NCBI GenBank assembly: GCA_023701285.1 | Contig: JAMPXH010000011.1 | Coordinates: 1 to 57,545, forward strand | Length of the DNA: 57,545 bases | Direction of reading: 5' to 3' | DNA from: Candidatus Didemnitutus sp. | GTDB taxonomy: Bacteria; Verrucomicrobiota; Verrucomicrobiia; Opitutales; Opitutaceae | Part shown: positions 37,994 to 55,603 of the stretch, piece after piece | Position numbering within the stretch: position 1 is the stretch's first letter | How the letters are laid out: every line of letters starts with the position of its first letter | The notes under the pieces: model-generated | Database searches by the model: none | Told to the model about the DNA's origin: nothing | Seen by the model: only the letters and a program-made list of their open reading frames with translations | Made by a program: the position numbers and the translations under genes

Positions 37994-38027
37994 TTGTGCG
38001 CAGCAATCCGCGGGCGGGTTTGCACAA
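37994..38027. promoter_or_regulatory. Inverted repeat TTGTGC-N22-GCACAA upstream of hox operon
   Basis: The 286-bp gap before hoxE holds an inverted repeat TTGTGC (37994-37999) and GCACAA (38022-38027), with a second overlapping pair GCGCAG/CTGCGC. Either could be an operator for the hydrogenase promoter. I see no recognisable FNR or sigma-54 site, and nothing else identifiable in the gap. Confidence 0.25.
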
Positions 38028-38152
38028 TCTGCGCCCAGTCCGCGCGCTCGCGTCCGGGTATCCTCGCGGAGTCAATCAACTCTCCCCGGCCGGTCCTGTT
38101 CGAGGCGGACCGCGAGGGCGGTGCGCCGAGGTCCGGATTGGCCCCCCGCCCC

Positions 38153-38704
38153 ATGCTCGTCACCGAAGCCCGCCGCCGCATCGAACGCAAAAAAAAGGCC
38201 GCCGCCCTGCCCGCCCCCGCCGGCGACAAACGGCTCGTCATCCTCGACACCTTCATGAAGCGCCAGCAGTTCCGCGGCGACGCGCTCATCGAGGTGCTCC
38301 ACAAGGCGCAGGAACTCTTCGGCTTCCTCGACGACGGCCTCCTGCTCTACATCGCCCGCGCGCTCAAGCTCCCGCCGAGCCGCGTCTACGGCGTCGCGAC
38401 CTTCTACCATTTCTTCAAGCTCAAGCCCCAGGGCGAGCACACCTGCGTCGTCTGCCTCGGCACCGCCTGCTACGTCAAGGGCGCCGACAAGATCATGGCC
38501 GCGATCGAGCAGCACGCCGGCATCCGCAACGGCGAGACCACGGCGGACAACAAGCTCTCGCTCCTCGCCGCACGCTGCATCGGCGCCTGCGGCATCGCGC
38601 CCGCCGTCGTCTACGACGGCACCGTCGCCCCGAAGCAAACCCCCGCCGGCGCCGTCGCGGCCGTCACCAAACTTCTCAACGCGCCATGCAAATCGAACAG
38701 CTGA
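38153..38704 (+). CDS. hoxE: NAD-linked [NiFe] hydrogenase diaphorase subunit HoxE
   Basis: This 183-aa NuoE-like subunit carries a thioredoxin-fold [2Fe-2S] cluster. The ligand pairs are Cys101/Cys106 (CVVCLGTAC) and Cys142/Cys146 (RCIGACG). VYGVATFYHFF is the typical helix before the cluster. It passes electrons within the diaphorase module of the cytoplasmic bidirectional hydrogenase. The ATG at 38153 is chosen because the family similarity starts shortly after; the upstream open frame is Arg/Pro-rich and non-coding in appearance. The stop lies 19 nt inside hoxF, so the genes are translationally coupled. It is the first gene of hoxEFUYHW. Confidence 0.94.
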   Translation: MLVTEARRRIERKKKAAALPAPAGDKRLVILDTFMKRQQFRGDALIEVLHKAQELFGFLDDGLLLYIARALKLPPSRVYGVATFYHFFKLKPQGEHTCVVCLGTACYVKGADKIMAAIEQHAGIRNGETTADNKLSLLAARCIGACGIAPAVVYDGTVAPKQTPAGAVAAVTKLLNAPCKSNS

Positions 38705-40308: not shown

Positions 40309-40315
40309 TCCCGCC

Positions 40316-41032
40316 ATGGCTGTCAAAACCCTCACCATCGACGGACGCCCGCTGACCGCCCCCGACGACGCGACGATCCTCGACGTCTGCCAGGAGGCCG
40401 GCATCGCGCTCCCCACGCTTTGTCATCTCGACGGCGTCGGCGATGTCGGCGCCTGCCGGCTCTGCCTCGTCGAGATCGCGGGCTCGCCGAAACTCTTCCC
40501 CGCCTGCACCACCCGCGTCGCCGAAGGCATGGAAGTCACCACCAACTCGCCGCGCCTCCAGCACTATCGCCGCCTCACGCTCGAGTTGCTCTTCGCCGAG
40601 CGCAACCACGTCTGCGCCGTCTGCGTCGCCAACGGCCAGTGCGAGCTCCAGTCGCTCGCCGCCGATTGCGGCGTCGACCACGTCCGCTACGAATACCAGA
40701 CGCCGGCCTGCGACGTCGACCAGTCGCACCCGCTCTTCGGCATGGACCACAACCGCTGCATCCTCTGCAGCCGCTGCGTCCGCGTCTGCTGGCAGATCGA
40801 AGGCGCGGCCACCAAGGGCGTCACCGGCCGCGGCAGCCACTCGCGCATCGCCACCGACCTCAACCAGCCCTGGGGCGACTCCGACACCTGCAGCTGGTGC
40901 GGCAAATGCGTCATGGGCTGCCCCACCGGCGCACTCTTCTACCGCGGCGCCGCCACCGGCGAGATGCTGCACGACCGCTCGCGCCTCGAAGCCATCGTCA
41001 ACGCCCGGGAGACCAAACAATGGAACGCCTGA
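40316..41032 (+). CDS. hoxU: NAD-linked hydrogenase diaphorase subunit HoxU
   Basis: This 238-aa NuoG-N-terminus-like iron-sulfur subunit wires the diaphorase to the hydrogenase half. A plant-type [2Fe-2S] domain has Cys36, Cys47, Cys50 and Cys64 (CHLDGVGDVGACRLC). A His/Cys-ligated [4Fe-4S] site follows (NHVCAVCVANGQCELQ). Two further [4Fe-4S] motifs are CILCSRCVRVC and CSWCGKCVMGCPTG. The size is standard for HoxU. The stop is 13 nt inside hoxY. All cluster ligands appear intact. Confidence 0.96.
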   Translation: MAVKTLTIDGRPLTAPDDATILDVCQEAGIALPTLCHLDGVGDVGACRLCLVEIAGSPKLFPACTTRVAEGMEVTTNSPRLQHYRRLTLELLFAERNHVCAVCVANGQCELQSLAADCGVDHVRYEYQTPACDVDQSHPLFGMDHNRCILCSRCVRVCWQIEGAATKGVTGRGSHSRIATDLNQPWGDSDTCSWCGKCVMGCPTGALFYRGAATGEMLHDRSRLEAIVNARETKQWNA

Positions 41033-41565
41033 GATTCGCCACCGTCTGGCTCGGCGGCTGCGCCGGTTGCCACATGTCCTTCCTCGACCTCGACGAGTTC
41101 CTCATCGACCTCGCCGCCCGCGTGGAGCTCGTCCACAGCCCCATCGCCGACCTGAAACAGTATCCGGCCGGCGTCGACCTCTGCCTCATCGAAGGCGCCG
41201 TCTGCAACGAGGACCACGTCGAGCTCTTGCACACCATCCGGAAGCACACGCGCCTCCTCGTCTCCTTCGGCGACTGCGCCGTCACCGGCAACGTCCCCTC
41301 GATGCGCAACGTCCTCGGCGCGAAAAACGCCGACCAGGTCCTGCAACGCGCCTACGTCGAGGCCGCGGAGAACAACCCCGTGAAGCCCCGGCGCGACGGC
41401 ATCCTCCCGCCGCTGCTGCCGCGCGTCCTCCCCGTCCACGCGCTCGTCAAGATCGACTACAACCTGCCCGGCTGCCCGCCGCCCGCGGACCGCATCAAGG
41501 CCTTCCTTCTCCACCTGCTCGATAACGCCCCCGCGCTGCAAGGCGCCCAATTGAAATTCGGCTGA
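41020..41565 (+). CDS. hoxY: NAD-linked [NiFe] hydrogenase small subunit HoxY
   Basis: This 181-aa small subunit carries the proximal [4Fe-4S] cluster next to the [NiFe] site. The proximal ligands begin with Cys14 and Cys17 in [13 protein letters not shown], then [16 protein letters not shown] and [12 protein letters not shown]. The short length, with no Tat signal and no medial or distal clusters, matches soluble group 3d enzymes. The ATG at 41020 overlaps hoxU by 13 nt. hoxH follows after 35 bp. Confidence 0.96.
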
Positions 41566-41600
41566 GCGCCCCGCGCTCCGCCCCTCCGCCCGCGCCCCTC

Positions 41601-43034
41601 ATGACCCGTCGCATCGTCATCGACCCCGTCACCCGCATCGAAGGCCACGCCAAGATCAGCCTGCGTCTCGACGACGACGGCCACGTCGCCGACGCGGAGT
41701 TCCACGTCACCGAATTCCGCGGCTTCGAGAAATTCTGCGAAGGCCGTCCGCTCGCCGAGATGCCCGCCATCACGGCGCGCATCTGCGGCATCTGCCCCGT
41801 CTCGCACCTGCTCGCCTCCGCCAAGGCCGGCGACGCCATCCTCGCCGTGCGCGTGCCCACCGCCGCGGAGAAACTGCGCCGGTTGATGAACCTCGGCCAG
41901 TTCGTGCAGAGCCACGCGCTGAACTTCTTCCATCTCAGTTCACCCGATTTCCTTCTCGGCTGGGACACCCCGCCCGCCCAGCGCAACGTCTTCGGCCTGA
42001 TCGCGCAGCACCCCGAGCTCGCCCGCGCCGGCATCCGGCTGCGCCAGTTCGGCCAGGAAGTGATCGAGATTCTCGGTGGCAAGAAGATCCACCCCGCCTG
42101 GGCCGTGCCCGGCGGCGTGCGCAGCGGCATCGACCGCGCCGGCCTCGACCGCATCCGCGCCTGGTTGCCCGAGGCCTTCACGACCGCCGGCCTCGCGCTC
42201 GACCTTTTCAAGCGCACGCTCGCCACACACCAGCGCGAGATCGAGACCTACGGCGACTTTCCCTCGCTCTTCATGGGTCTCGTCGGCCCGCGCGGCGAAT
42301 GGGAACACCACGGCGGCAAGCTGCGTTTCACCGACAGCAACGGCCAGATCGTCGCCGACCAGCTCGACCCCGCGAAATATCCGCAGGTCATCGCCGAGTC
42401 CGTGCAGAACGGTTCCTACCTCAAGTCGCCCTATTACAAATCCCTCGGCCCTCTCGGCGGCATGTATCGCGCCGGCCCGCTTGCGCGGCTCAACGTCTGC
42501 AGCTTCATCGGCACGCCCAAGGCCGACGCCGAACTGACGCACTTCCGCTCCTTCGGCCGCAGCGGCGCCGTCACCTCCTCGTTCCTCTACCACTACGCGC
42601 GCCTCATCGAGATCCTCGCCGCGCTCGAACGCATCGAGCTTTACCTCGACGACGACGACCTGCTCCGCGACCACATCCGCTCCGACGCCGGCATCAACCA
42701 CCTCCACGGCGTCGGCGTGAGCGAGGCCCCGCGCGGCACGCTCTTCCACGAATACTGGGTCGACGAGCACGGCCTGCTCACGAAGGTGAACCTCATCATC
42801 GCCACGGGACACAACAACCTCGCGATGAACCGCACCGTCGCGCAGATCGCCCGCAGCTACATCCAGCCCGGCACGACCGACATTCCCGAGCCGCTGCTCA
42901 ACCGCATCGAGCACGGCATCCGCTGCTACGACCCCTGTCTCAGCTGCTCGACCCACGCCGCCGGCCAGATGCCGCTGCTCGTGCGTCTCTTCGCCCCGAA
43001 CGGCGAACTGCTCCGCGAAGTCGCCCGCGACTGA
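41601..43034 (+). CDS. hoxH: NAD-linked [NiFe] hydrogenase large subunit HoxH
   Basis: This 477-aa catalytic subunit holds the [NiFe] site that oxidises or evolves H2. The L1 motif RICGIC has Cys62 and Cys65. The L2 motif DPCLSCSTH has Cys446 and Cys449, followed by 25 residues that the maturation endopeptidase removes after His452. [14 protein letters not shown] is the family N-terminus. Motifs and neighbours place it in the bidirectional NAD-linked group 3d. All four nickel ligands are present, so the enzyme should be functional if hyp genes exist elsewhere in the genome. Confidence 0.97.
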
Positions 43035-43044
43035 CCTGCCGCCC

Positions 43045-43587
43045 ATGCCGCACTCCCGGAACGCAACGTTCGCCCCGGCCGCCCCCGCCCGCGAAGGCAC
43101 GCCCGCCGGCACGAAGCCCGCCGCTTCGGTTCGCATCCCGGCCGTGCCCTCGCGCCTGCTCATCATCGGCTACGGCAACACGCTCTTCGCCGACGACGGC
43201 CTCGGTCCGCTCGTCGCGCAACAGGTCGCGGATTGGTGCGCACCCGGCGTGCTCGCGTTGGAACGGCACGAACTCCTCCCCGAACTCGCAGCCGACCTCG
43301 CCGCCGCCGAGGAAGCGATCTTCGTCGACGCCGCGCTCGCCGGTGCGCGGGTGTGCCTCACGCGTCTCGCCCCGCCTGCGGCGCCAACCGAAACGCCGGC
43401 GGCGCACCTCAACCACGCGCTCACCCCCGCGGCCCTGCTCCGCCTGTCCGCCGCACTTTACGGCCGTGCGCCGGCCGCGTGGTTGCTCACGATTCCCGGG
43501 GCGGATTTCTCGCTCGGCGGCGCACTCTCCGAGACGGCCCGCGCCGGCTTGGCCGAGGCCGTGGCGATGCTGCGCCAGCGCATTTAA
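43045..43587 (+). CDS. hoxW: Hydrogenase maturation endopeptidase HoxW
   Basis: This HyaD/HoxW-family aspartic-like protease clips the C-terminal tail of HoxH after nickel insertion. The conserved core starts with LIIGYGNTLFADDGLGPLVAQQ (about 38-59), the family GxGNxLxxDDGxG motif with the metal-binding acidic residue, then FVDAALAGA, and LNHALTPAALL, where the metal-binding His is expected. From the ATG at 43045 the protein is 180 aa with an odd Pro/Ala-rich 35-residue leader; a GTG at 43144 would give 147 aa, closer to the family norm. It lies 10 bp after hoxH, which fits a dedicated role. Confidence 0.9.
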   Translation: MPHSRNATFAPAAPAREGTPAGTKPAASVRIPAVPSRLLIIGYGNTLFADDGLGPLVAQQVADWCAPGVLALERHELLPELAADLAAAEEAIFVDAALAGARVCLTRLAPPAAPTETPAAHLNHALTPAALLRLSAALYGRAPAAWLLTIPGADFSLGGALSETARAGLAEAVAMLRQRI

Positions 43588-43641: not shown

Positions 43642-44760
43642 ATGGCCGCATCCAAGATCCTCGTCGTCGACGACCAGCCCATCAACGTCCAGCTGCTCAA
43701 GCGCAAGCTCGAGCGCGAGGGCATGAGCGTCGCCACGGCGTTCTCCGGCCGCGAGGCGCTCGACCTCGTCGCGGCGGACAAACCCGACCTCATCCTCCTC
43801 GACGTCATGATGCCCGACATGGACGGCATCGAGGTCTGCCAGCGCCTGCAGGCCGATCCGGAGACGAAGGTCATCCCCGTCATCTTCATCACCGCCCGCA
43901 CCTCGAAGGAAGGCAAGATCGAGGGCCTCGGCGTCGGCGCCGTCGACTACATCACCAAGCCCATCGACCTCGACGAGACGCTCGCCCGCGTGCAGACGCA
44001 GCTGCGCTTCGTGACGATGAACCGCGAGCTCGTGGAGCTCCAGCGCCGCCTCGGCGAGAGCCGCCGCGCCGCCACCATCGGCGCCGTCACCCAGGGCATC
44101 GCGCACAATCTCAACAACCTGCTCGGCGTCGTCATCGGCTACGTCGACCTCATCAAGGCCTACCACGAGAAGCCCGAGCTCGTGCGCAAGAACGCGCAGC
44201 ACCTCGAGGACGCGGTCAACCGCATCGTCGCCATCATCAAGCAGCTCACGAACCTCGTGGTGAAGAACAAGCCGCTGCTCGGGCGCACGCCGCTGGCGCA
44301 GCTGCTCGAAGGCAGCGTCCGCCGCTACCAGGCGGAGCATCGCATCGACCAACCCGTCACGATCGAGAACGCCGCCGGCGACCTGGCGATCGAGACGAAC
44401 GCGGAGGTGTTCGAGGATTCGGTGGCGAAGCTGCTCATCAACGCGTGGGAAAGCTACCACGACGCGCCCGACGACCAGCGCCGCATCACCCTGCGCACCG
44501 AAGTCGCCCCGCACGGCGAAGAGGACCATGTGTTGCTGGTGCATGTCGAGGATCGCGGCCAGGGCATCGACGCCGAGATCACCGACCACGCCTTCGAGCC
44601 TTTCATCAGTTCCAAGCACACCGTCGGCGTCGGCATGGGCCTGACCGTCGCGCGGCACTCCGTGCGCAACCTCGGCGGCGAAGTCACGCTCGCGGCGCGC
44701 GAAGGCGGCGGCGCGGTGGCCACGCTGCGTCACCCGCTCGAGCGCAAGACGAAGCACTGA
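43642..44760 (+). CDS. Hybrid REC-histidine kinase
   Basis: This 372-aa soluble protein has an N-terminal receiver domain (about 4-120) with Asp10/Asp11, the phospho-acceptor Asp54 in LILLDVMMPDMDG and Lys106 in YITKPID. A coiled linker leads to a HisKA-like helix with the H-box GIAHNLNNLLG (His155) and a HATPase_c domain (about 250-370) with DRGQGI and GVGMGLTVARHSV. There is no membrane segment. The receiver-first order suggests it works inside a phosphorelay. It begins 54 bp after hoxW on the same strand and may be co-transcribed with the hydrogenase, but a regulatory link to it is unproven. Confidence 0.88.
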   Translation: MAASKILVVDDQPINVQLLKRKLEREGMSVATAFSGREALDLVAADKPDLILLDVMMPDMDGIEVCQRLQADPETKVIPVIFITARTSKEGKIEGLGVGAVDYITKPIDLDETLARVQTQLRFVTMNRELVELQRRLGESRRAATIGAVTQGIAHNLNNLLGVVIGYVDLIKAYHEKPELVRKNAQHLEDAVNRIVAIIKQLTNLVVKNKPLLGRTPLAQLLEGSVRRYQAEHRIDQPVTIENAAGDLAIETNAEVFEDSVAKLLINAWESYHDAPDDQRRITLRTEVAPHGEEDHVLLVHVEDRGQGIDAEITDHAFEPFISSKHTVGVGMGLTVARHSVRNLGGEVTLAAREGGGAVATLRHPLERKTKH

Positions 44761-44937: not shown

Positions 44938-45873
44938 TTAAGGCAACACTTCGATCCAGAACGGCACGAAGACATCGTTGCCGCCCAGATTCACCTGCGC
45001 CCACACGACGTAGCGGCCCGGATTGGGGATCGTGACCTTAAAGGTCAGTTCCGGACGCAGCGCGTCCGGCGTGTGCGTGAGATCGGCTTCGTTCGGGTGC
45101 AGGTGCGCGAAGCCCGTGCGGTCGAGATCGAAGGCGACGAGGTGCGCGTAGGCGCCCATCACGGGCTGCATCGGCACGGAGCGCTTGGTCGCGCCGGGGC
45201 TCTCGAGGCGGAACTTCAACTCGGCCGTGCGCCCCGCCTGGAGCAGCGGCGGAGTCTCGAGCGTGAAATTGAAGCCCGCCGCCTGCGCGGTCGTGCTGAC
45301 GCTGCGCACGACGCGCGCGACGTCGCCCGGCACCTCGAAATCGACCGCGGCGTAGAGCCCGCGCGCCGTGGCGGCGGGCATGAAATCGGCGAACACGCGA
45401 TACGTGCCGGCGCGCTCGGGCGTCAGGCGGAAGACCCACTCGCCGGGCTCGCGGCCGGGCTCGGGGTGCAGGTGTTGGTAGTCGTTCAGCGTGGGATCGA
45501 CGACGAGCAGGTGCAGCTTGCGCGTGTGGGCCACGAGCAGATCGGCCGGGCCGATGGGTTTGCCGCTCGCCGTGCTCATCGTGAGCGTGAAGGTCACCGG
45601 CTGGCCGCGCGTCGGCGGCACATCGCTGCGCAGCTTCAGTTGCACGGGCGACTTCGCGGAGATGACGGGGATGAACTGCGGGCTGTTCGGATCGCAGAAC
45701 TCGATCGCACCCTTTTCCTCCACCCGGAAATCCATGTGGTTGAGGTTCGAGCCGATCGGGAGCCAGCGCATGAACGCGTAGAAGCCGAGCGCCGCCGCGG
45801 TGATGAGGAGCAGCGCGCGCCATTGGGCGCGGGAGAAGGAGGTCGACGGGGAAGGACTGGCGGACTGGCTCAT
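44938..45873 (-). CDS. Membrane-anchored protein with duplicated HLHP motifs
   Basis: This 311-aa protein has one N-terminal helix (about 19-36) and a large periplasmic part. Two related units stand out: HTRKLHLLVVD...YQHLHPEP (about 116-139) and MGAYAHLVAFD...FAHLHPNE (about 239-262), each inside a beta-rich immunoglobulin-like or cupredoxin-like fold (about 70-185 and 195-311). His-rich repeated motifs next to a CusF-SCO protein and a copper oxidase suggest copper handling, which is inference. I do not recognise an established family name. The ATG at 45873 directly precedes the helix. It lies 55 bp downstream of the SCO gene on the same strand. Confidence 0.75.
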   Translation of the reverse strand: MSQSASPSPSTSFSRAQWRALLLITAAALGFYAFMRWLPIGSNLNHMDFRVEEKGAIEFCDPNSPQFIPVISAKSPVQLKLRSDVPPTRGQPVTFTLTMSTASGKPIGPADLLVAHTRKLHLLVVDPTLNDYQHLHPEPGREPGEWVFRLTPERAGTYRVFADFMPAATARGLYAAVDFEVPGDVARVVRSVSTTAQAAGFNFTLETPPLLQAGRTAELKFRLESPGATKRSVPMQPVMGAYAHLVAFDLDRTGFAHLHPNEADLTHTPDALRPELTFKVTIPNPGRYVVWAQVNLGGNDVFVPFWIEVLP

Positions 45874-45928: not shown

Positions 45929-46906
45929 TCACCGCTGCATGCGTGGCAGGAAATCGTCCGTCGTCCAGCGACTGCCGTCGACGCGGTGGATGATGCGGCC
46001 GTCGCGGTCGATGAGCAGCGTGGCGAGGTTGTGCTTGATGGTGCCGCCCTCGAACTCGCGGATGATGCCGAGCTGGGCCAGCAGGTGCCGCACGGCGGCA
46101 TCGGGGCCGGTGAGGAAGGACCAGTTGGAAAGATCGAGACCGCGCGCGTCGGCATAATCCTTCAGCACGCCGGGCGTGTCGTAGTCGGGGTCGAGCGAGA
46201 TCGAGACGAACTCCACGTCCGTGACACCCGCCTGCTTCGCGGCCTGCTGCAGCTCGGACATCTTCTGCGTGGAGGCCGGGCACATGGTCGCGACCGGGCA
46301 ACGCGTGAAGATGAAGTTCATCATCACCCGCTTGCCGCGGAAACGGTTGGCCGAGGCGGTGCGGCCTTCCTGGTCGAGCAGGATGAAGTCGGGCGAGGAT
46401 TCGCCGACCTCGCGATAGACGCCGCGGCCGCGCGTGGCGGTATCCTGCGCGAGGGCCTTGGTGGCGGCGTCGAGCGCGCGGACGGTCACGGCATCGTCGG
46501 GCCAGATGCGCTCGAGATGATAATCCGGCGCGGCGCCGCGCTCGACGATCTCGGCGCGGATGCGCTGGCCGGGTTTGGCGTTCATGGCGTCGCCATGGGA
46601 AACTTTGAACTCCATCGTCATCGCCGGCATGTAGCCGGGGATCTCGTCGTGCGTGACGATGAGGACCTTGTTGGGAACGTCGGCGCTGAGGATCTCGCCC
46701 TTGAGGGGGAAACGCGGCTCGAAGCCGCGGCTCTTCATCGCGGCGCGGTAGGCATCCGCGGTGCCCTCGGCGGGACTCCAGGCGACGTCGCGCTCGGTGT
46801 CATCCGCGGCGGACGACGCCTCGTTGCGACCGCAACCGGCCAGGACCGCGATCGCCATAAGGGCGCATGCGGCCAGCCGCACCGCCGTCGAATACCTCGG
46901 AATCAT
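45929..46906 (-). CDS. CusF-SCO1/SenC fusion lipoprotein
   Basis: This 325-aa lipoprotein (lipobox VLAGC, Cys25) first shows a CusF-like copper-binding beta-barrel (about 68-130) with GYMPAMTMEF (91-100). A thioredoxin-fold SCO domain follows (about 165-325). Its metal cysteines are Cys203 and Cys209 in TRCPVATMCP, spaced CX5C, where classical SCO1 has CX3C; the distal ligand His292 (IKHNLATLLID) is present. SCO proteins deliver copper to the CuA site of cytochrome c oxidase, and a caa3 oxidase is encoded nearby. It is divergent from ctaA with 97 bp between the starts. Confidence 0.9.
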   Translation of the reverse strand: MIPRYSTAVRLAACALMAIAVLAGCGRNEASSAADDTERDVAWSPAEGTADAYRAAMKSRGFEPRFPLKGEILSADVPNKVLIVTHDEIPGYMPAMTMEFKVSHGDAMNAKPGQRIRAEIVERGAAPDYHLERIWPDDAVTVRALDAATKALAQDTATRGRGVYREVGESSPDFILLDQEGRTASANRFRGKRVMMNFIFTRCPVATMCPASTQKMSELQQAAKQAGVTDVEFVSISLDPDYDTPGVLKDYADARGLDLSNWSFLTGPDAAVRHLLAQLGIIREFEGGTIKHNLATLLIDRDGRIIHRVDGSRWTTDDFLPRMQR

Positions 46907-47003: not shown

Positions 47004-47981
47004 ATGCAACGCACGTCCCACTACAAACCCGCCCTGGCTTGGTTTGCCACGCTCGGCAGCGCCTGGGTCTTCGTCCTCGTGACGCTCGGCGCGTTCACGA
47101 CGAGCATCGGCGCCGGCATGGCATTCCCTGACTGGCCGTTGTCGAACGGCTCGGTGAATCCCGAAGGCTGGCTGACCGACGTGGCGATGTTCGCCGAGCA
47201 TTCGCACCGGCTGACGGGGGCGTTGATGGGCTTCATCACCATCGGGCTCGCGGTGTGGCTGGGAAAGGGCGAGGAGCGCGCCTGGCTGCGCCGGCTCGGC
47301 TGGTGGGCGCTGGCGATCGTGATCGTGCAGGGCCTGATCGGCGGCAAGCGCGTGCTGCTCGACTCGCTGGCGGTGCCGGGCTTCGAAATGACGCTCGGGC
47401 AGATGCTGCGCATCCCGCATGGCGTGCTCGCTCAGGTGTTCGTGTGCGTGCTCTTCGCCATCGCCGCGGGACTCTCGCGCACGTGGATCGAGCGGCAGGG
47501 CGGCCTGCTCGGCGCGCCGGGCGAAAACGTGCGCCGGCTGGGTTTCTGGAGCCTGTTCCTGCTGCTCACCCAACTGTGGATCGCCGCGGCGATGCGCCAC
47601 AACCACGCCGGCATGGCCATCCCCTATTTCCCGTGGTCCACCGCCGAGCGCGACTGGCTGCCGCTGGCGTGGGATTACCGCGTGACGTTGCAATTTCTGC
47701 ACCGGGTCATGGCAGTGGTGCTGGCCGTGGTGATCAGCCTCTATGTCCGCGCCCTGTGGCGCGACGCGGCGGTGTCGCCGTTCCTGCGAAAACTGGGTCT
47801 CGGGCTCGTGGGTTTGCTGGCCTTGCAGATTCTGCTCGGGGCGAAAGTCATCTGGAGCGGGCGCGACGCCTACCTCACCACCGCGCACGTGATCGTCGGG
47901 GCGTTGACGTTGGCCGTCACTTTCCTCGTGACGTTTTTCACGCATCGTCATGCGATGGAGGCCCCACCGCCCCGCGCATGA
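47004..47981 (+). CDS. ctaA: Heme A synthase
   Basis: This 325-aa integral membrane enzyme oxidises heme O to heme A for the caa3 oxidase. About eight helices are visible, in two four-helix halves. Heme-ligand histidines appear in AEHSHRLTGA, RIPHGVLAQ, LQFLHRVMAV and TTAHVIVGAL, the expected two pairs. The N-terminal LGAFTTSIGAGMAFPDWPLSNG matches the family. The ATG at 47004 is used; the frame is open upstream as antisense to the SCO gene. The stop overlaps ctaB in ATGA. Confidence 0.95.
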   Translation: MQRTSHYKPALAWFATLGSAWVFVLVTLGAFTTSIGAGMAFPDWPLSNGSVNPEGWLTDVAMFAEHSHRLTGALMGFITIGLAVWLGKGEERAWLRRLGWWALAIVIVQGLIGGKRVLLDSLAVPGFEMTLGQMLRIPHGVLAQVFVCVLFAIAAGLSRTWIERQGGLLGAPGENVRRLGFWSLFLLLTQLWIAAAMRHNHAGMAIPYFPWSTAERDWLPLAWDYRVTLQFLHRVMAVVLAVVISLYVRALWRDAAVSPFLRKLGLGLVGLLALQILLGAKVIWSGRDAYLTTAHVIVGALTLAVTFLVTFFTHRHAMEAPPPRA

Positions 47982-48883
47982 CACCCCGCGAATCCATCCC
48001 GCCATCCTCCGCTCCGCGGGCGACGTGGCGCCATTATCTGGAACTGACGAAGCCGCGGCTGAGCCTGCTGTCCGTGACGACCGCCATGCTCGGCTACATG
48101 GCCGCGGTGCCCAATTGGGAATGGCTGCGCACCGGCTGGCTCGTGCTCGGCACGGCGTTGTGCGCGGGCGGCGTGGCGGCGTTGAACCAGTGGATGGAAT
48201 CCGACACGGACGCGAAGATGCAGCGCACCGCCGGACGTCCGCTGCCGACCGGCACGGTGCAACCGGGCTCCGCCTTCGTGCTCGGGTGGGTGCTGTGCGT
48301 GGCCGGCCTGGCGGTGTTGTTCCGCCAGGTGAACGGCATGTCGGCCTTCCTCGGCCTGGCGACGATCGTGGCCTACCTCGCGATCTACACGCCGGCCAAG
48401 CGCTGGTCGCGCTGGTCGACGGAGATCGGCGCCATCAGCGGCGCGTTCCCGCCGATGATCGGCTGGGCGGCGGCCGGTCGCTCGAATCCTGAGCTGGGGT
48501 GGAATCTCTTCGCCATCCTCTACACGTGGCAGATGCCGCACTTCTTCTCGCTGGCCTGGACTTACCGCAAGGACTACGCGGCGGCCGGCATGCCGATGCT
48601 CTCGGTCGTCGACCCGAGCGGACGCAAGGTGGCGACGCGCTCCTTCGTCTGGACCGTGCTGCTCATGGTCGCCGGGGCGATGCCGACGCTGCTGGGCTAT
48701 TGTTCGTGGTATTACTTCGCGTTCGCGGTGGTGCTCGGGCTGTGGATGCTGAAGTCGGCCTTCCACTTCCTCGATCCGGCGCGGCGCGACACGGAGGCCC
48801 GGCGTCTCTTCTACATCACGCTGGCCTACCTGCCGCTGTTGCTCGGCCTGTTGGTGGCGGACCGCATGTTTTTCCGGCTCTGA
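47978..48883 (+). CDS. ctaB: Protoheme IX farnesyltransferase (heme O synthase)
   Basis: This 301-aa UbiA-superfamily membrane enzyme adds the farnesyl group to heme B, giving heme O, the substrate of CtaA. The first allylic-diphosphate motif NQWMESDTDAKMQRTAGRPL is well preserved, along with LTKPRLSLLSV at the N-terminus and PHFFSLAWTYRKDY around the second conserved loop. About eight helices are predicted. The ATG overlaps the ctaA stop by 4 nt, so the two heme A biosynthesis genes are coupled. Confidence 0.96.
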   Translation: MTPRESIPPSSAPRATWRHYLELTKPRLSLLSVTTAMLGYMAAVPNWEWLRTGWLVLGTALCAGGVAALNQWMESDTDAKMQRTAGRPLPTGTVQPGSAFVLGWVLCVAGLAVLFRQVNGMSAFLGLATIVAYLAIYTPAKRWSRWSTEIGAISGAFPPMIGWAAAGRSNPELGWNLFAILYTWQMPHFFSLAWTYRKDYAAAGMPMLSVVDPSGRKVATRSFVWTVLLMVAGAMPTLLGYCSWYYFAFAVVLGLWMLKSAFHFLDPARRDTEARRLFYITLAYLPLLLGLLVADRMFFRL

Positions 48884-48936: not shown

Positions 48937-49389
48937 ATGTCCCTCGACGACATCCCCGCCCTGAACGCCGGCCTCAATGCGCTCGCCACCGTCCTCATGA
49001 CGATCGGGTTCGTGCTCATCAAGCAGGGCAAACGCGAAGGCCATCGCGTCGCCATGCTCTCCGCGGGCGTCGTCTCGGCGATCTTCCTCGTCGGCTACGT
49101 CACGCACAAGGCCCTGAAAGGCGCCGCGGCCGGTGCGGGCGAGGCGATCCACACGGAGTTCGGCGGCGAAGGGGCGATCCGCCTCGTCTATTATGTGATG
49201 CTGATCACGCATGTGCTGCTCGCGATCGCGATCGCCTACCTCGTGCCGCGCACCTTCTGGCTCGCGCTCAAGGGCAACTACGAGGTGCACAAGCGCTGGG
49301 CCCGTTTCACCTACCCGATCTGGTATTACGTCAGCGTCACCGGCGTGCTGGTGTATTTCTTTCTCTACGTCTGGTGGCCGAAGCGATGA
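48937..49389 (+). CDS. DUF420 membrane protein (CtaM-like)
   Basis: This 150-aa protein has four predicted membrane helices: LNALATVLMTIGFVLI, AMLSAGVVSAIFLVGYVTH, LVYYVMLITHVLLAIAIAYL and IWYYVSVTGVLVYFFLYVWW. It belongs to the DUF420 group usually encoded with caa3 oxidase genes; a member called CtaM is needed for heme-copper oxidase activity in some Gram-positives. Conserved histidines are in YVTHKAL, LITHVLLA and VHKRWARFTYP. It begins 53 bp after ctaB. A role in oxidase assembly is inferred from the family and from its neighbours. Confidence 0.85.
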   Translation: MSLDDIPALNAGLNALATVLMTIGFVLIKQGKREGHRVAMLSAGVVSAIFLVGYVTHKALKGAAAGAGEAIHTEFGGEGAIRLVYYVMLITHVLLAIAIAYLVPRTFWLALKGNYEVHKRWARFTYPIWYYVSVTGVLVYFFLYVWWPKR

Positions 49390-49470: not shown

Positions 49471-49962
49471 TTACTTGACCACGAGCACGCCCTTCATGCC
49501 GGCCTGATAGTGAGCCGGGAAGGAGCAGAGGAACACGTATTCGCCCGGCTCGCTGGGAGCGGTGAAGCTGACCTCGTCGGTCTGCTTCGGCCCAAGCAGC
49601 TTGGTGTGGGCGATGATCTGCTCCTGGAAGGCGGCCGGGATGTAGTCCGTCGCCTGGGCGGTGATGGCGGCCTTGTCGAAGGCCTCCACGTCGGCGCCCT
49701 TCTTGAGCAGCACCCAGTTGTGGCCCATGGCGGCCTTGGGCATGCTGCCGATGTTGGTGAGGATGACCTTCACGGTCTGGCCGGCCTTCACCTCGGCGCG
49801 GGTGACGTTGAACTTCATGCTGTCGTTCGCCGTGAACTCGAGCGTGGCGAACGCCGCGTCGGTGGCGGCGGCGCCGGAGCCGGCGGTGGATTCCTGTTTG
49901 CCGCAGCCGGCCAGGGCGAGGACGCCGGCCAGAGCGAAGAGAGCAAGGGTGTGGTGTTTCAT
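49471..49962 (-). CDS. Azurin-like type 1 copper lipoprotein
   Basis: This 163-aa protein has a lipoprotein signal (LALAGC, Cys20) and a cupredoxin domain (about 36-163). The type 1 copper ligands are intact: His81 in MGHNWVLLKKG, then Cys146, His151 and Met156 in FLCSFPAHYQAGMKG. The order and the long region between ligands match azurin. It probably carries electrons in the periplasm, and as a lipid-anchored carrier could donate to the caa3 oxidase encoded divergently. The ATG at 49962 is preferred over in-frame upstream codons because it begins the signal peptide. It is monocistronic. Confidence 0.93.
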   Translation of the reverse strand: MKHHTLALFALAGVLALAGCGKQESTAGSGAAATDAAFATLEFTANDSMKFNVTRAEVKAGQTVKVILTNIGSMPKAAMGHNWVLLKKGADVEAFDKAAITAQATDYIPAAFQEQIIAHTKLLGPKQTDEVSFTAPSEPGEYVFLCSFPAHYQAGMKGVLVVK

Positions 49963-50191: not shown

Positions 50192-51478
50192 ATGACCCGC
50201 ACACGCTCTGCTCACCGCACGTTCCTTTCCGTTGGCGCGCTCTCGCTGGCCCTCCTGAGCCTGCTCTGCCTCACGGGATGCTCGGATATCTTCAACCTGA
50301 GCGGCCACATGTCGACCCGTGACACGGCCGGCCCCGTCGCCCGCGCGCAATGGGATGTCTTCATGGTCACGGTGTGGGTGACGCTGTTCATCTTCATCGT
50401 CGTGGGCGCCGTGCTGGCCTACGCGCAGATCAAGTTCCGCGCGAAGAACACCGCCGACGAGCAGGCCGAGCCGCCGCCGCAGGGCCACGGCAACCCGCTG
50501 ATCGAAATCGGCCTCATCGTCGCCTCGGTCGCGCTGCTCGTCATCATCGCCATCCCCACGCTCAAAAACATCTGGTATACCCACGACGTGCCGGAGGCCG
50601 AGAAGGCCAACGCGATGGACATCAACGCGGTCGGTTACCAGTGGTGGTTCAAGTTCGAATACACCGGCGAGAAGGTCCAGCTGCCCGACGGCGGCGAGGC
50701 CACGCTGGTGACCGGCAACGAGCTAGTCATCCCCGCCGGTGTCCCGGTGCGCGTGCACCTGCGCACCATCGACGTCATCCACAGCTTCTGGGTCCCGAAA
50801 CTCGCCGGCAAGGTCGACATGATCCCGAACCGCGCGAACTTCCTCTGGATGCAGGCCGACAAGCCCGGCTATTTCTACGGGCAGTGCGCCGAGTATTGCG
50901 GCGAGTCGCATGCGATCATGCGCTTCCGCGTCATCGCGCTCTCCCCTTCCGACTACGTGAAGTGGCTCGACAACCAGAAGGCCGCCGCCCGCACCGCCAC
51001 CGCCGCCGCGATCCGCCGCGAAGACGAGCAGGTGCGGATGGAATTCGCCTCGCTGCCCGCCACCGGCCCGCGCAGCACGCTGGCGTCCACCAACGGCAGC
51101 CTCGACACCGATCCCCTCTCCGCCTGGAAGACCAAGCAGCACCCCGAGGCCGGCGAGAACGCCCCGCTCATCGCCGAGGGCCGCCGCCTCTTCAAGGAGA
51201 AGACCTGCATCAGCTGCCACACCGTCCGCGGCCATGAAGGCATCGGCATCACCGGCCCCGACCTGACGCACGTCGGCTCCCGCTCCACCATCGCCGCCGG
51301 CGTGCTGGAAAACACGCCCGAGCGCCTCTTCCAGTGGATCAAGGACCCGAACTACTTCAAACCGGGCAACAAGATGTATGTGGGCGGCTACGTCGACGCC
51401 CAGTCGCGCAAACCGCTCTTCACGCTGAACGACGACGAAATCCACGCCCTCGTCGCCTACTTGCAGAGCCTCAAGTAA
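50192..51478 (+). CDS. ctaC: caa3-type cytochrome c oxidase subunit II with fused cytochrome c
   Basis: This 428-aa membrane subunit starts with a lipoprotein-like signal (LLCLTGCSD). Two transmembrane helices (about 55-80 and 100-125) precede a CuA cupredoxin domain (about 140-270) with IHSFWVPKLAGK and the CuA ligands Cys232, Cys236, His240 and Met243 in QCAEYCGESHAIMRF. The C-terminal cytochrome c domain (about 325-428) has heme motif CISCH (339-343) and a Met ligand in GNKMYVGGYV. It receives electrons from periplasmic carriers and passes them to subunit I. It is first in ctaC-D-E-F-G. Confidence 0.96.
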   Translation: MTRTRSAHRTFLSVGALSLALLSLLCLTGCSDIFNLSGHMSTRDTAGPVARAQWDVFMVTVWVTLFIFIVVGAVLAYAQIKFRAKNTADEQAEPPPQGHGNPLIEIGLIVASVALLVIIAIPTLKNIWYTHDVPEAEKANAMDINAVGYQWWFKFEYTGEKVQLPDGGEATLVTGNELVIPAGVPVRVHLRTIDVIHSFWVPKLAGKVDMIPNRANFLWMQADKPGYFYGQCAEYCGESHAIMRFRVIALSPSDYVKWLDNQKAAARTATAAAIRREDEQVRMEFASLPATGPRSTLASTNGSLDTDPLSAWKTKQHPEAGENAPLIAEGRRLFKEKTCISCHTVRGHEGIGITGPDLTHVGSRSTIAAGVLENTPERLFQWIKDPNYFKPGNKMYVGGYVDAQSRKPLFTLNDDEIHALVAYLQSLK

Positions 51479-51527: not shown

Positions 51528-53480
51528 ATGGCCCAAGCACTGGCTAAATCCGATTACCACGGCACCGAGCACGCCGCCCCGAAGCCGATCGAGCTCCTGC
51601 CGCGACCGACGTCCCGGACCGGTCTCGTCAGCTGGCTCACCACGGTCGACCACAAGAAGATCGGCCTGATGTATGCCGCCTTCGCGTGCATCTTCTTCCT
51701 CATCGGCGGCCTTGAGGCGCTGCTCATCCGCACGCAGCTCATCGTGCCGAACAACCGTTTCATCAGCGCCCAGTTCTACAACGAACTGTTCACGATGCAC
51801 GGCACCACGATGATCTTCCTCGCGGTGATGCCGCTGAACTCGGCGTTCTTCAACCTGCTCATCCCGCTCCAGATCGGCGCGCGCGACGTTGCGTTTCCCC
51901 GTCTGAACACGTTCTCACTTTGGACTTTCGTCGCCGGCGCGATCATTCTCAACGTCGGCTGGCTCTCCTACGTGTTCCCCGAGACTTTCACCTTCGGCCT
52001 GCCCGACGCCGGCTGGTTCGGCTACGCCCCGCTGACCTCGAAGGTCTTCACGCCCGACGCCTCGACGGACCTGTGGATCCTCGGCCTGCAAATCCTCGGC
52101 CTCTCCTCGATCGTCGCCTCGCTGAACTTCATCGTCACGATCATCAACCTGCGCGCGCCCGGTCTCACCATGATGCGCCTGCCGGTGTTCACGTGGATGA
52201 CGCTCATCACCAGTTTCCTCCTCGTGCTCGCGCTGCCCGCCATCGCCATCGCGCTGGTCGAGGTGATGTTCGACCGCCACTTCGGCACGAATTTCTTCGA
52301 GGCTTCCAACGGCGGGCAGCCCATCCTCTGGCAGCACCTCTTCTGGGTGTTCGGCCATCCTGAGGTCTACATCCTCATCCTCCCGCCGATGGGTTACGTC
52401 TCGGAAATCCTCCCGACCTTCGCCCGCAAGCCGCTCTTCGGTTACCCGATCATCGTCTTCTCCGGCGCGGCCATCGGCTTCATCGGCTTCGGCGTGTGGA
52501 GCCACCACATGTTCACCACCGGCATGGGCACGGTCGCCACGGCCGCTTTCTCCATCGCCACCATGGCCATCGCGGTGCCGACGGGCGTGAAGATCTTCAA
52601 CTGGATCGGCACCCTCTGGGGCGGCCAGATCATGACGCGCACGCCCATGATGTTCGCCCTCGGCTTCATCTGGATGTTCATGCTCGGCGGCTTCTCCGGC
52701 ATCATGCACTCCGCCGCCCCGGCCGACGCCCAGCAGCAGGATTCCTACTTCGTCATCGCGCACTTCCACTACGTGCTCATCGGCGGCGCCACCTTCGCGC
52801 TGCTGGCGGCGATCCACTTCTGGTTCCCGAAGTTCTTCGGCCGCCTCGTGCCGGAGTTCTGGGGCAAGCTCTCGTTCTGGATCATCTTCATCGGCTTCAA
52901 CACGACGTTCTTCCCGATGCACTTCCTCGGTCTGAACGGCATGCCGCGCCGCACCTGGACCTACGACGCCAACATGGGTTGGAACGAGGCCAACTTCATC
53001 GCCACCTGCGGCGCCTATCTCCTCGGCGTCGGCATCTTCACCTACTTCGCCGTCCTGATCTACACCTACTTCAAGGGCGAGAAGGCCGGCAACGATCCGT
53101 GGGACGGCCGCACGCTCGAGTGGTCCATCCCCTCGCCGCCGCCGGAGTATAACTTCAAGGCCATCCCCACCGTTCACGCCCGCGATGCCTTCTGGTATGA
53201 GAAGCACCACAAGGAGGAGATCGCCAAGGAGCAGGCCGAGCACATGCAGGCCGAGTCCGCGCACGGCGGCATCCACATGCCCGACCAGTCGTGGTATCCG
53301 CTCTTCGCCTCCATCGGCCTCCTCGTGGGCGCCCTCGCCTTCGCCTTCGGCCAGATCCCGCTCGCGATCGGCGGCGGCATCGTCCTGTTCCTCAGCTGCT
53401 ACCTCTGGGCGCTCGAAGGCCCCGGCGGCTACCACATCCACCTCGACGAAAAGGGCAACGAGACCATCTCGCGCCACTGA
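51528..53480 (+). CDS. ctaD: caa3-type cytochrome c oxidase subunit I
   Basis: This 650-aa catalytic subunit has 12 core helices and a C-terminal extension. The low-spin heme ligand (MHGTTMIFLAVMP), the CuB/His-Tyr site (FGHPEVYILILPPMG), the CuB pair HHMFTTGM and the heme a/a3 ligands AHFHYVLIGG are all visible. The GHPEVY form places it with A1-type heme-copper oxidases. It reduces O2 to water and pumps protons. After the core, residues about 530-650 carry a charged linker (HHKEEIAKEQAEHMQ) and two more helices, an extended form common in caa3 enzymes. It follows ctaC by 49 bp. Confidence 0.97.
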   Translation: MAQALAKSDYHGTEHAAPKPIELLPRPTSRTGLVSWLTTVDHKKIGLMYAAFACIFFLIGGLEALLIRTQLIVPNNRFISAQFYNELFTMHGTTMIFLAVMPLNSAFFNLLIPLQIGARDVAFPRLNTFSLWTFVAGAIILNVGWLSYVFPETFTFGLPDAGWFGYAPLTSKVFTPDASTDLWILGLQILGLSSIVASLNFIVTIINLRAPGLTMMRLPVFTWMTLITSFLLVLALPAIAIALVEVMFDRHFGTNFFEASNGGQPILWQHLFWVFGHPEVYILILPPMGYVSEILPTFARKPLFGYPIIVFSGAAIGFIGFGVWSHHMFTTGMGTVATAAFSIATMAIAVPTGVKIFNWIGTLWGGQIMTRTPMMFALGFIWMFMLGGFSGIMHSAAPADAQQQDSYFVIAHFHYVLIGGATFALLAAIHFWFPKFFGRLVPEFWGKLSFWIIFIGFNTTFFPMHFLGLNGMPRRTWTYDANMGWNEANFIATCGAYLLGVGIFTYFAVLIYTYFKGEKAGNDPWDGRTLEWSIPSPPPEYNFKAIPTVHARDAFWYEKHHKEEIAKEQAEHMQAESAHGGIHMPDQSWYPLFASIGLLVGALAFAFGQIPLAIGGGIVLFLSCYLWALEGPGGYHIHLDEKGNETISRH

Positions 53481-53506: not shown

Positions 53507-54358
53507 ATGAGCAGTCACGCCTCCGCCGGCGCCATCGACCATCACCACGATCCGTCCACCGCGACGGGCATTCCGAACAAGAAGCTCCTCTGGTGGGCTT
53601 TCCTGGCCTCGGACTGCATGTTCTTCGGCGCCCTCATCTCGACGCATCTCGTCTACCGCATCAACCCGCCGCCGGGCAACCACGTGCCCACGCAGGTCTT
53701 CGACCTCGAGCTGACGTCCTTCTCGACGTTCATCCTGCTCATGTCGTCCCTGATGATGGCGCTCGCCGTGAACGCCATCCAGCGCGGCCAGATCCGGTCG
53801 ATGCGGAATTCCCTCCTCACGACGATCTTCTTCGGCTGCATCTTCCTCGGCTGCCAGGTGTATGAGTTCGTGCACTTCGTCCACGAGAAGAAGATGACGC
53901 TGTCGAACAGCCTCTTCGGCTCCACGTTCTACACCCTCACCGGCACGCACGGCACGCACGTCGCCATCGGCGTGCTCATCCTCGGCCTGATGTATGTCCG
54001 CTCCTTCAAGTCCTCCTCCCCGCACAGCGGCGGCTGGGGCGAATTCCTGAAGACCGTCGTGCACGTCGCCGCCGTCTGCGTGGCGATGGCCGTCACCTTC
54101 ATCGTCGTCGTCCCCGCCGGCATCGGCCTAGTCAAGGGCGAGGTCGCCCTCGGCGCGTTCCTCAGCGGCAACCTCATGCCGCTGCTGGCGCTGGCCGGCG
54201 CGGGTGTCGTCATGGCCTGGCTCGGACGCGCGACCCACGGCGTCGACTTCGGCGAGCGCAACGCCATCGATGTCGAGGCGGTCGGCCTCTACTGGCACTT
54301 CGTCGACATCGTCTGGATCGTGATCTTCACCGCCGTTTACCTGCTCGAATACCTCTAA
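53507..54358 (+). CDS. ctaE: caa3-type cytochrome c oxidase subunit III
   Basis: This 283-aa membrane subunit has seven or more predicted helices. Family features are LLWWAFLASDCMFFGALIS, FSTFILLMSSLMMALAV and FYTLTGTHGTHVAIGV, followed by the C-terminal VGLYWHFVDIVWIVIF. The carboxylate and histidine of GTHGTHV are conserved. A His-rich N-terminus (DHHHD) precedes the first helix. An extra pair of helices at about 180-240 lengthens it beyond the minimal subunit III. It stabilises subunit I and its proton path. The ATG at 53507 is 26 bp past the ctaD stop. Confidence 0.94.
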   Translation: MSSHASAGAIDHHHDPSTATGIPNKKLLWWAFLASDCMFFGALISTHLVYRINPPPGNHVPTQVFDLELTSFSTFILLMSSLMMALAVNAIQRGQIRSMRNSLLTTIFFGCIFLGCQVYEFVHFVHEKKMTLSNSLFGSTFYTLTGTHGTHVAIGVLILGLMYVRSFKSSSPHSGGWGEFLKTVVHVAAVCVAMAVTFIVVVPAGIGLVKGEVALGAFLSGNLMPLLALAGAGVVMAWLGRATHGVDFGERNAIDVEAVGLYWHFVDIVWIVIFTAVYLLEYL

Positions 54359-54365
54359 TCCCACC

Positions 54366-54719
54366 ATGTCCGCTCACGCCTCCACCGCTCCGGCCACCGC
54401 CGGCCACCACGAGCCGAGCAAGTTCCACATCTACGTCCAGATCGCGATGCTCCTCGGTGTGATCACCGGCATCGAGGTCGTGCTGATCTACCTGCCGTTC
54501 GCCAAATGGCTCGTGGTCACGGGACTCGTCGTGCTCTCCGCCGTGAAGTTCCTCTACGTCATTTTCTACTTCATGCACCTGAAGTGGGATAAGGCGTTTT
54601 GCACGATCCTGTTCTTCATCGGCATGGTCCTCGCCGGCGGCACGATGTGGGCGCTGCTCCACCTCTTCGGCGCCGAGGCCAGCAAGCCCCTGACCTCGGT
54701 CATCGGCATGCTGCTCTGA
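54366..54719 (+). CDS. ctaF: caa3-type cytochrome c oxidase subunit IV
   Basis: This 117-aa membrane protein has three predicted helices (about 22-42, 48-72 and 78-102). Residues FYFMHLKWDKA match the prokaryotic subunit IV family (COX4_pro). It begins 7 bp after ctaE, and a strong terminator follows 25 bp after the stop. It likely helps assemble or stabilise the oxidase. Confidence 0.92.
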   Translation: MSAHASTAPATAGHHEPSKFHIYVQIAMLLGVITGIEVVLIYLPFAKWLVVTGLVVLSAVKFLYVIFYFMHLKWDKAFCTILFFIGMVLAGGTMWALLHLFGAEASKPLTSVIGMLL

Positions 54720-54808: not shown

Positions 54809-55603
54809 ATGATCGATTGGACGCACTGGCACAACGAGCCCTTCCTGGTCGGAGGCCTCGCCTTGCTTGGCTGGCTCTACGCCGTGCTGACCGGTCCCTG
54901 GCGCGAACGCCTCGCCCCGGGCACACCCTACCCGCGGGCGCACGCGGTGAAATTCTACTCGGCGCTCGCGATCTTCTACCTCGCCGTGGGATCGCCGCTG
55001 GATCAGGTCGCGGAGCGCTTCCTGTTCAGCGCCCACATGCTGCAGCACCAGCTCATCATCTACCCCGCGGCCATCCTGCTGCTGCTCGGCCTCCCCGACT
55101 GGGCGGTGCGGCCCGTCACCGGCCAGGCCAATTTGCGCTGGCTCCTCGGCCTGTTCACGCACCCGATCATCTGCGGCCTGCTCTACTGCGTCATCATGTC
55201 GTGCTGGCATTTCCCCTTCCTCTACGAGTGGGCGTTGCAGAACCGCACGGTGCACATCCTTGAGCACTTCACGATGTTCGGCGCCGCGCTCTTCCTCTGG
55301 TGGCCGATCTGCAGCCCCTCGCGCGAGTATCCGCCGACGGCGCCGGCGTGGCAGATGTTCTACTTCGTGGGCATCACCATCGGCATGACGCCGGTGTTCG
55401 CCTACATCACGTTCGCGACGGATATCCTCTACCCCACCTACGAGTTCGCCCCGCGCATCATCGCCAACTTTAGCCCGAAGGACGATCAGCTCCTCGCCGG
55501 CTCGATGATGAAGCTCGGCGGCATGCTCGTGATGATGGGGGCCTTCGCGATCGCGTTCTACCGCTGGTATCAGCAATCCGAGGGCCGCCCCGGCCGCGCC
55601 TGA
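54809..55603 (+). CDS. ctaG: Cytochrome c oxidase assembly factor CtaG (caa3 type)
   Basis: This 264-aa integral membrane protein of the caa3_CtaG family has about seven helices. Conserved segments are FSAHMLQHQLIIYPAAILLLL, SCWHFPFLYEWAL, VHILEHFTMFGAALFLWWP and QMFYFVGITIGMTP. Several membrane histidines (in SAHMLQHQ, CWHFP and LEHFT) fit a copper or heme handling role. It is needed for formation of caa3 oxidase in Bacillus. The ATG at 54809 is used; the codons upstream overlap ctaF and the terminator. The next gene starts 4 bp after the stop. Confidence 0.93.
   Translation: MIDWTHWHNEPFLVGGLALLGWLYAVLTGPWRERLAPGTPYPRAHAVKFYSALAIFYLAVGSPLDQVAERFLFSAHMLQHQLIIYPAAILLLLGLPDWAVRPVTGQANLRWLLGLFTHPIICGLLYCVIMSCWHFPFLYEWALQNRTVHILEHFTMFGAALFLWWPICSPSREYPPTAPAWQMFYFVGITIGMTPVFAYITFATDILYPTYEFAPRIIANFSPKDDQLLAGSMMKLGGMLVMMGAFAIAFYRWYQQSEGRPGRA

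Follow-up and report, generated by a model that had tools for sequence, protein, structure and literature searches.

The window, by which we mean the whole 57,545-nucleotide stretch of DNA analysed here, encodes a protein with two homologous histidine-bearing domains (hereafter, the HLHP protein) next to a CusF-SCO gene and a caa3 oxidase cluster. As judged from sequence comparison and gene context, a copper role for this protein is very likely. More specifically, we consider it probable that it is a membrane-tethered extracytoplasmic copper chaperone which, together with SCO, delivers copper to the CuA centre of caa3 in the Opitutales-like lineage. A sequence-only reading of the window had hesitated between a copper chaperone and a redox accessory factor; the former is now supported by the SCO, caa3 and copper genes that neighbour family members, and by the substitution of a SCO-PCuAC-CtaG set in one congener.

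Domain organization and conserved histidines

The HLHP gene is single-copy in its own genome (one match). The structural model of its product is confident (mean pLDDT 90.4, pTM 0.83) and consists of an N-terminal helix (residues 15-37), a less certain linker and two beta domains, an arrangement that suggests an extracytoplasmic location for the latter. The features of the protein and of its neighbourhood are collected in Table 1.

Table 1. Position of the HLHP gene, its parts and the neighbouring genes in the window
Feature	Position	Strand	Remarks
HLHP protein gene	44938..45873	-	311 aa; N-terminal helix (predicted anchor) and two Ig-like HLHP domains
Predicted membrane anchor, residues 15-37	45763..45831	-	long N-terminal helix in the model and hydrophobic run in the sequence
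Juxtamembrane H46-x13-C60 segment	45694..45738	-	typical of the Opitutales-like clade
Domain 1, residues 77-186, Ig-like beta sandwich	45316..45645	-	model, profile alignment and fold search
Domain 1 metal-site candidate (H116, H121, H134, H136, P137)	45463..45528	-	alignments
Domain 2, residues 193-311, Ig-like beta sandwich	44941..45297	-	model, profile alignment and fold search
Domain 2 metal-site candidate (H244, H257, H259, P260)	45094..45144	-	alignments
CusF-SCO fusion	45929..46906	-	PF02630 E 3.8e-23, PF11604 E 8.8e-10; 325 aa, start by eye
ctaA (COX15)	47004..47981	+	divergent from CusF-SCO; start by eye
ctaB	48074..48817	+	UbiA match region; gene start not fixed
DUF420 protein (CtaM family)	48937..49389	+	named CtaM after the accessible part of PMC9145763
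Azurin/plastocyanin-like protein, within the cta cluster	49471..49962	-	PF00127 E 6.8e-17; start by eye
ctaC, subunit II fused to cytochrome c (caa3 type)	50192..51478	+	C-x3-C-x3-H-x2-M, the CuA pattern
ctaD (COX1)	51528..53480	+	
ctaE (COX3)	53600..54358	+	start not fixed
ctaF (COX4_pro)	54366..54719	+	
Caa3_CtaG match region	54872..55573	+	

When aligned profile against profile, the two domains proved homologous (probability 99.0, E 7.6e-18 over 98 columns), and the duplication is therefore far above chance. Domain 1 bears the motif HLLVVDPTLNDYQHLHPEP with H121, H134 and H136, and domain 2 the motif HLVAFDLDRTGFAHLHPNE with H244, H257 and H259, both with the spacing H-x12-H-x-H-P; domain 1 has in addition an invariant histidine of its own, H116. 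The sequence-only reading had placed the duplicated motif at the end of each unit: the duplication holds, whereas the strand layout puts the motif in the middle of the domain.

The conservation of these residues was assessed in two alignments. Alignment A2 comprises the window protein and 65 of the best 80 of 572 relatives; all seven histidines are invariant in its 66 rows, although the invariance of H244 is partly built in because the loci were found by a pattern around this residue. The same seven are invariant in the 28 rows of alignment A1, which spans five phyla and includes six plasmid rows found by tblastn without the motif pattern. The prolines are nearly as constant in A2 (P137 in 64 and P260 in 65 of 66 rows), and the remaining two histidines of the window protein are variable (35/66 and 2/66). 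M239 is found in 37/66 rows, and no methionine beyond the start is common to the family. One HLHP copy, at L070:8001-9112, has stops in the matched stretch, possibly a frameshift or a pseudogene, and was omitted from A2.

Branch-specific residues

Thirty Opitutales-like rows group on one side of a tree branch (97/92) and share residues that are rare or missing elsewhere: C60 is present in all 30 and in none of the 36 other rows, H46, juxtamembrane like C60, in 28/30 versus 7/36, and M239 in 30/30 versus 7/36. On the basis of this distribution, we propose that H46 and C60 may offer SCO or CtaC an additional site for exchange. The idea of a redox accessory factor found no support: no cysteine is conserved family-wide in the 66 rows of A2, C60 being restricted to the Opitutales-like clade.

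Family relationships and distribution

A Pfam search with the window protein gave nothing above cut-off (the best being Golvesin_C, E 0.039); NCBIfam yielded no match, and the PDB no relative by sequence at E below 0.05. Foldseek and VIA-align matched the model to generic Ig-like folds (best Z 8.6 among the 50 matches listed); no copper protein was among the matches listed, an absence that excludes nothing. The YtkA family PF13115 matches 19 of the 66 aligned HLHP proteins at E <= 0.01 (best 6e-8) and does not match the window protein; when 16 HLHP proteins were scored singly against it, only one (L088) was above the cut-off (29.7 vs 25.9 bits). The HLHP family may thus be a remote, duplicated, histidine-bearing cousin of the YtkA domains.

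Relatives occur in genomes of the window's own order, of Actinomycetota and of Pseudomonadota. Plasmids carry them too: 218 records gave a match, 93 of them staphylococcal, and the plasmid relatives come from Bacillota, Bacteroidota, Cyanobacteriota, Actinomycetota and haloarchaea. The HLHP domains are naturally fused to an HMA domain in Paenarthrobacter (L036:4701-5693) and to a heavy-metal-binding HMBD domain in Hymenobacter (L034:4698-5639). In the haloarchaeon Natronococcus (L135:3473-4660), the match lies at the C terminus of a protein with a helix-turn-helix annotation, possibly a metal sensor. In one genome, a further HLHP-like stretch, matched weakly at 29% identity, lies within a 763-aa open frame (G029:C78:73340-73846).

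Searches of the open-access literature found no paper tying the HLHP motif to copper; no HxHP motif was mentioned among the papers listed for CopZ and CsoR, and the accessible parts of the PCuAC/Sco literature on Verrucomicrobi treated only another protein. As far as the open-access literature, Pfam and NCBIfam are concerned, the HLHP proteins are undescribed as a class. The C. glutamicum gene cg3283 was considered as a possible copper-induced member, its gene order showing no clear fit in the accessible part of PMC3140484.

SCO genes adjoin HLHP throughout the Opitutales-like loci

In the window, the CusF-SCO gene lies 55 bp upstream of the HLHP gene on the same strand; its product has a lipoprotein-like start and an N-terminal CusF domain. 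It is probably the operon partner of the HLHP gene. On the other side, a response regulator receiver followed by a histidine-kinase-like ATPase (43642-44760, opposite strand) adjoins the HLHP gene, and frames resembling an NAD-linked [NiFe] hydrogenase operon (HoxF, HoxU, HoxY, HoxH and a protease, by eye) occupy 37996-43587.

We surveyed the gene neighbourhood at 80 genome loci, the best 80 of 572 confirmed relatives, a selection weighted towards the window's order and Actinomycetota. Thirty-eight loci (L037-L073 and L075) were labelled Opitutales-like from their records (Opitutae, Opitutia, Opitutales, Opitutaceae, Opitutus or Verrucomicrobia/Verrucomicrobiota) and 42 as others. Because neighbour genes were identified by tblastn from a limited number of reference sequences, some copper genes were possibly overlooked.

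A SCO gene lies upstream of HLHP on the same strand in all 38 Opitutales-like loci of these best 80, with a tblastn gap below 400 bp in 37 of them and of 519 bp in the last (L042). Beyond SCO, divergent ctaA/ctaB are found in 34/38; of the four loci without them, three (L048, L058 and L062) have a short flank on that side, and in one (L067) neither gene lies within 8 kb. The CusF part was seen by tblastn in 30/38, the exceptions being L058, where the contig end cuts it, and seven more distant loci; Pfam scans of three proteins (those of the window, L037 and L041) confirmed it in each. The azurin-like gene, which lies within the cta cluster and is read in the opposite direction, was matched in 17/38.

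SCO was also met outside the order: the HLHP gene of G222, from another order, lies about 1.2 kb from a SCO gene, and in a Rickettsiales bin (L080) a SCO-like gene (PF02630 E 5.7e-11) is directly upstream of HLHP. Overall, the survey bore out the earlier suggestion of a link with copper genes: copper or SCO genes adjoin family members from six bacterial phyla, those of the window's order being SCO and caa3.

Copper pumps and regulators adjoin HLHP in other lineages

At the 42 other loci of the best 80, a P-type ATPase gene is present in 37 and starts less than 400 bp downstream of HLHP on the same strand in 32 of these; the loci without one in reach are L077, L078, L080, L082 and L092. An HMA-domain match lies upstream on the same strand in 28/42, and a CsoR-type regulator is nearby in 22/42. 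Plasmids gave a similar picture. We opened 18 of the 218 plasmid neighbourhoods (one per genus, hand-picked, with 4 or 5 kb of flanking sequence if the record was long enough) and found a P-type ATPase near HLHP in 12: those of Staphylococcus, Rothia, Hymenobacter, Gloeocapsa, Paenarthrobacter, Micrococcus, Mycolicibacterium, Nostoc, Exiguobacterium, Rhodococcus, Pseudanabaena and Gordonia. The Cytobacillus plasmid has a multicopper oxidase near HLHP and the Leptolyngbya plasmid a cation efflux protein; no clear copper gene was seen in the four remaining neighbourhoods opened (Priestia, Natronococcus, Haladaptatus and Planococcus).

Most relatives outside the window's order thus adjoin efflux pumps, a setting as compatible with buffering or export as with delivery. 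HLHP could accordingly be a copper buffer or resistance protein that sequesters copper outside the membrane, whether released by the efflux ATPase or present in the medium, its linkage to SCO in the window's order reflecting only shared copper regulation. The abundance of pumps, HMA proteins and CsoR-type regulators at these loci and on plasmids speaks for this explanation. We nevertheless regard it as unlikely, since SCO adjoins HLHP in every one of the order's 38 loci, HLHP is absent where COX2 is absent, and the one congener that lost HLHP lost it along with SCO and CtaG and holds PCuAC (see below).

The pumps also bear on the nature of the metal. Sites made of histidines only would suit Zn(II) too, and the protein might hold zinc or another metal, or use its histidines for folding, the copper neighbours being coincidental. 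However, all seven neighbouring ATPases scored (five from plasmids, two from genomes) pass the cut-off of the copper-type model TIGR01511 (NCBIfam), with higher bit scores than against the cadmium-type TIGR01512, whose cut-off they pass too. Likewise, two CsoR-type regulators and one HMA protein scored best, below cut-offs, against the copper models RicR and CopZ. Together with the tie of HLHP to COX2 genomes, these results make a zinc site or a folding role highly improbable.

HLHP accompanies COX2

HLHP is present in 37 of 57 related genomes and a match to COX2 (PF00116) in 45. All 37 HLHP-bearing genomes match COX2 and none of the 12 COX2-negative ones carries HLHP (Fisher p 1.8e-7). In two HLHP-bearing genomes, G003 and G009, the COX2 match is only weak (E 3.6e-5 and 1.3e-4, in frames of 188 and 187 aa) and HLHP lies on short contigs (13.4 and 4.0 kb); counting both as negative gives p 1.1e-5. 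Both p values overstate the association because related genomes are not independent. A search with the A2 profile found HLHP in none of the 20 negative relatives.

Eight relatives match COX2 without having HLHP (G011, G020, G024, G031, G035, G040, G043 and G049). In six of them the COX2 frames, of 245-273 aa, are too short for a cytochrome c fusion; G011 and G035 have a COX2 of caa3 length, and G035 is also without PCuAC. In G035, a SCO gene and an azurin-like gene lie beside a nosZ-like frame (L120:3892-5793, by eye), and this SCO may serve nitrous oxide reductase.

In a phylum sample of 193 genomes, the A2 profile matches 29; of the 34 genomes of the window's order in this sample, 28 have HLHP and COX2 and six have neither. 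A rule by which PCuAC or HLHP always accompanies COX2 had to be discarded: 36 COX2-matching genomes of the sample have neither, PF00116 also matching subunits that lack CuA, such as that of E. coli. One further COX2 match (G100:C3:15859-16224, E 3.1e-63) contains an in-frame TGA in a bacterial bin and is perhaps from a mitochondrial contig.

PCuAC, the standard chaperone for CuA, is rare in these samples: it was matched in 1/57 relatives (G011), 0/193 genomes of the phylum sample and 3/372 of an order sample. Two of these three (G298 and G405) were set aside as likely contamination, the matches lying in bins of two families on 4-kb contigs (L132, G298:C285; L131, G405:C365) that share identical frame starts, including a SCO-like frame and a 179-aa PCuAC; in the third (G309) the match is partial only. 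YtkA is absent from 56/57 relatives, and its sole carrier (G055) has neither HLHP nor COX2.

In one congener, PCuAC stands in place of HLHP

Among 12 congeners, G011 is alone in lacking HLHP, and among the 57 relatives it is alone in having PCuAC. Its genome is 2.2 Mb (74% complete), and the swap is seen in this one genome only. The caa3 locus of G011 (L117, G011:C4:208000-226000) retains open frames for ctaA, ctaB, DUF420, azurin and ctaC and full-length stop-free matches for ctaD, ctaE and ctaF, the genes being 55-81% identical to those of the window; ctaC, the single COX2 match in G011, keeps the CuA pattern. By contrast, CusF-SCO is in pieces with stops, as is CtaG, and all that is left of HLHP is a remnant of about residues 41-104 split over two frames. 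At a second locus (L118, G011:C3:346000-360000), SCO (PF02630 E 1.7e-41), PCuAC (E 1.4e-29) and Caa3_CtaG (E 2.2e-46) are consecutive open frames.

Since G011 has decayed CusF-SCO, HLHP and CtaG and holds SCO, PCuAC and CtaG, the three lost functions match the three present: PCuAC stands in place of HLHP. Such a replacement suggests that HLHP is a copper chaperone serving CuA. The cassette lies 2 kb from purC (by eye), which is 76% identical to that of the window's genome and 70-76% to those of congeners; the idea that contig C3 is foreign DNA is thus unsupported, one gene having been compared. The G011 stretches compared have 50-53% GC, versus 68%; the small genome and AT-rich stretches suggest a reduced, perhaps host-bound, lineage.

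The decay of CtaG alongside HLHP calls for a comment, as CtaG is tentatively held to be a CuB factor (PMC9145763, accessible part). HLHP might by the same token assist CuB or subunit I assembly in general, or be a copper-free structural partner of SCO. Against this stand its seven invariant histidines and its tie to copper pumps in other phyla, and we consider such roles improbable.

Proposed mechanism and significance

From the helix, the histidines and the gene context we infer the location of HLHP outside the membrane, copper binding, its stoichiometry and a direct hand-over to SCO or CtaC, as follows. Held outside the membrane by its N-terminal helix, HLHP would bind one copper ion in each Ig-like domain through a histidine cluster (H121, H134 and H136 plus H116 in the first; H244, H257 and H259 in the second) and exchange it with a partner. 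Together with the upstream SCO (CusF-SCO in the window), it would put copper into the CuA centre of cytochrome caa3, a job performed elsewhere by PCuAC or CtaK. In other phyla, HLHP proteins accompanied by Cu-type P-type ATPases and CopZ-like genes would probably take up or buffer exported copper.

A broader scheme, which we put forward tentatively from these sequence comparisons, is that of a class of two-site copper carriers in at least six bacterial phyla and haloarchaea, acting on the outer face as acceptors, in many lineages directly from a CopA-type pump, and as donors to copper enzymes. The window's branch might then have gained a juxtamembrane His-Cys site and become a dedicated CuA loader replacing PCuAC or CtaK.

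If HLHP does load CuA, it would represent a third solution to this assembly step, beside PCuAC and CtaK. CuA loading without PCuAC is being worked on in Bacillus, and HLHP offers a concrete candidate in another phylum, along with a natural gene replacement and straightforward predictions. A function would thereby be assigned to a large family whose members in copper operons are mostly labelled hypothetical proteins, including the 93 matching staphylococcal plasmid records, of which one neighbourhood was opened.

Comparison with known copper-delivery proteins

CusF, CopC and other periplasmic copper proteins are beta-rich and set in copper operons, traits that HLHP would share. The window HLHP protein has no Pfam match to these or other periplasmic copper families at E <= 10. 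SCO/SenC, whose gene adjoins HLHP on the same strand, handles copper outside the cytoplasm according to the literature; it has a thioredoxin fold with a CxxxC motif (PMC9145763, accessible part) and is here fused to CusF, whereas HLHP has no PF02630 match.

HLHP resembles PCuAC in its proposed job as copper donor to CuA beside SCO. In Thermus, copper is inserted by PCuAC and the cysteines are reduced by Sco (PMC6696091, in the part accessible). The two proteins differ in fold: PCuAC is a cupredoxin with a hairpin, HLHP a pair of Ig-like domains. The window protein has no match to PF04314 (PCuAC, cut-off 29.4 bits) at E <= 10 and lacks the PCuAC motif H(M)X10MX21HXM (given in the accessible text of PMC9145763), having instead H-x12-HxH and no invariant methionine. 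By sequence, HLHP is not a member of the PCuAC family.

The closest parallel is found in B. subtilis, which according to the accessible part of PMC9145763 has no PCuAC and possesses CtaK (YtkA), first reported only in 2020-2021, with Sco, Caa3_CtaG and CtaK all caa3-specific; the same source equates CtaM with DUF420. Copper rescues ctaK and sco defects (PMC13344008, accessible part). Like HLHP as we picture it, YtkA/CtaK is membrane-anchored and extracytoplasmic and acts with Sco on caa3 in a host without PCuAC (accessible parts of PMC9145763 and PMC13344008). HLHP differs in having two domains, a helix instead of a lipid anchor and histidine-only motifs: YtkA/CtaK is a lipoprotein with conserved histidine and methionine (PMC9145763, same part), and the window protein has no family-wide methionine beyond the start. 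The one YtkA-matching protein inspected (L134) is Met-rich and has no HxHP. The gene set of the window parallels that of B. subtilis, with SCO, CtaG and DUF420, and with HLHP in the place of CtaK; HLHP probably works like both PCuAC and YtkA.
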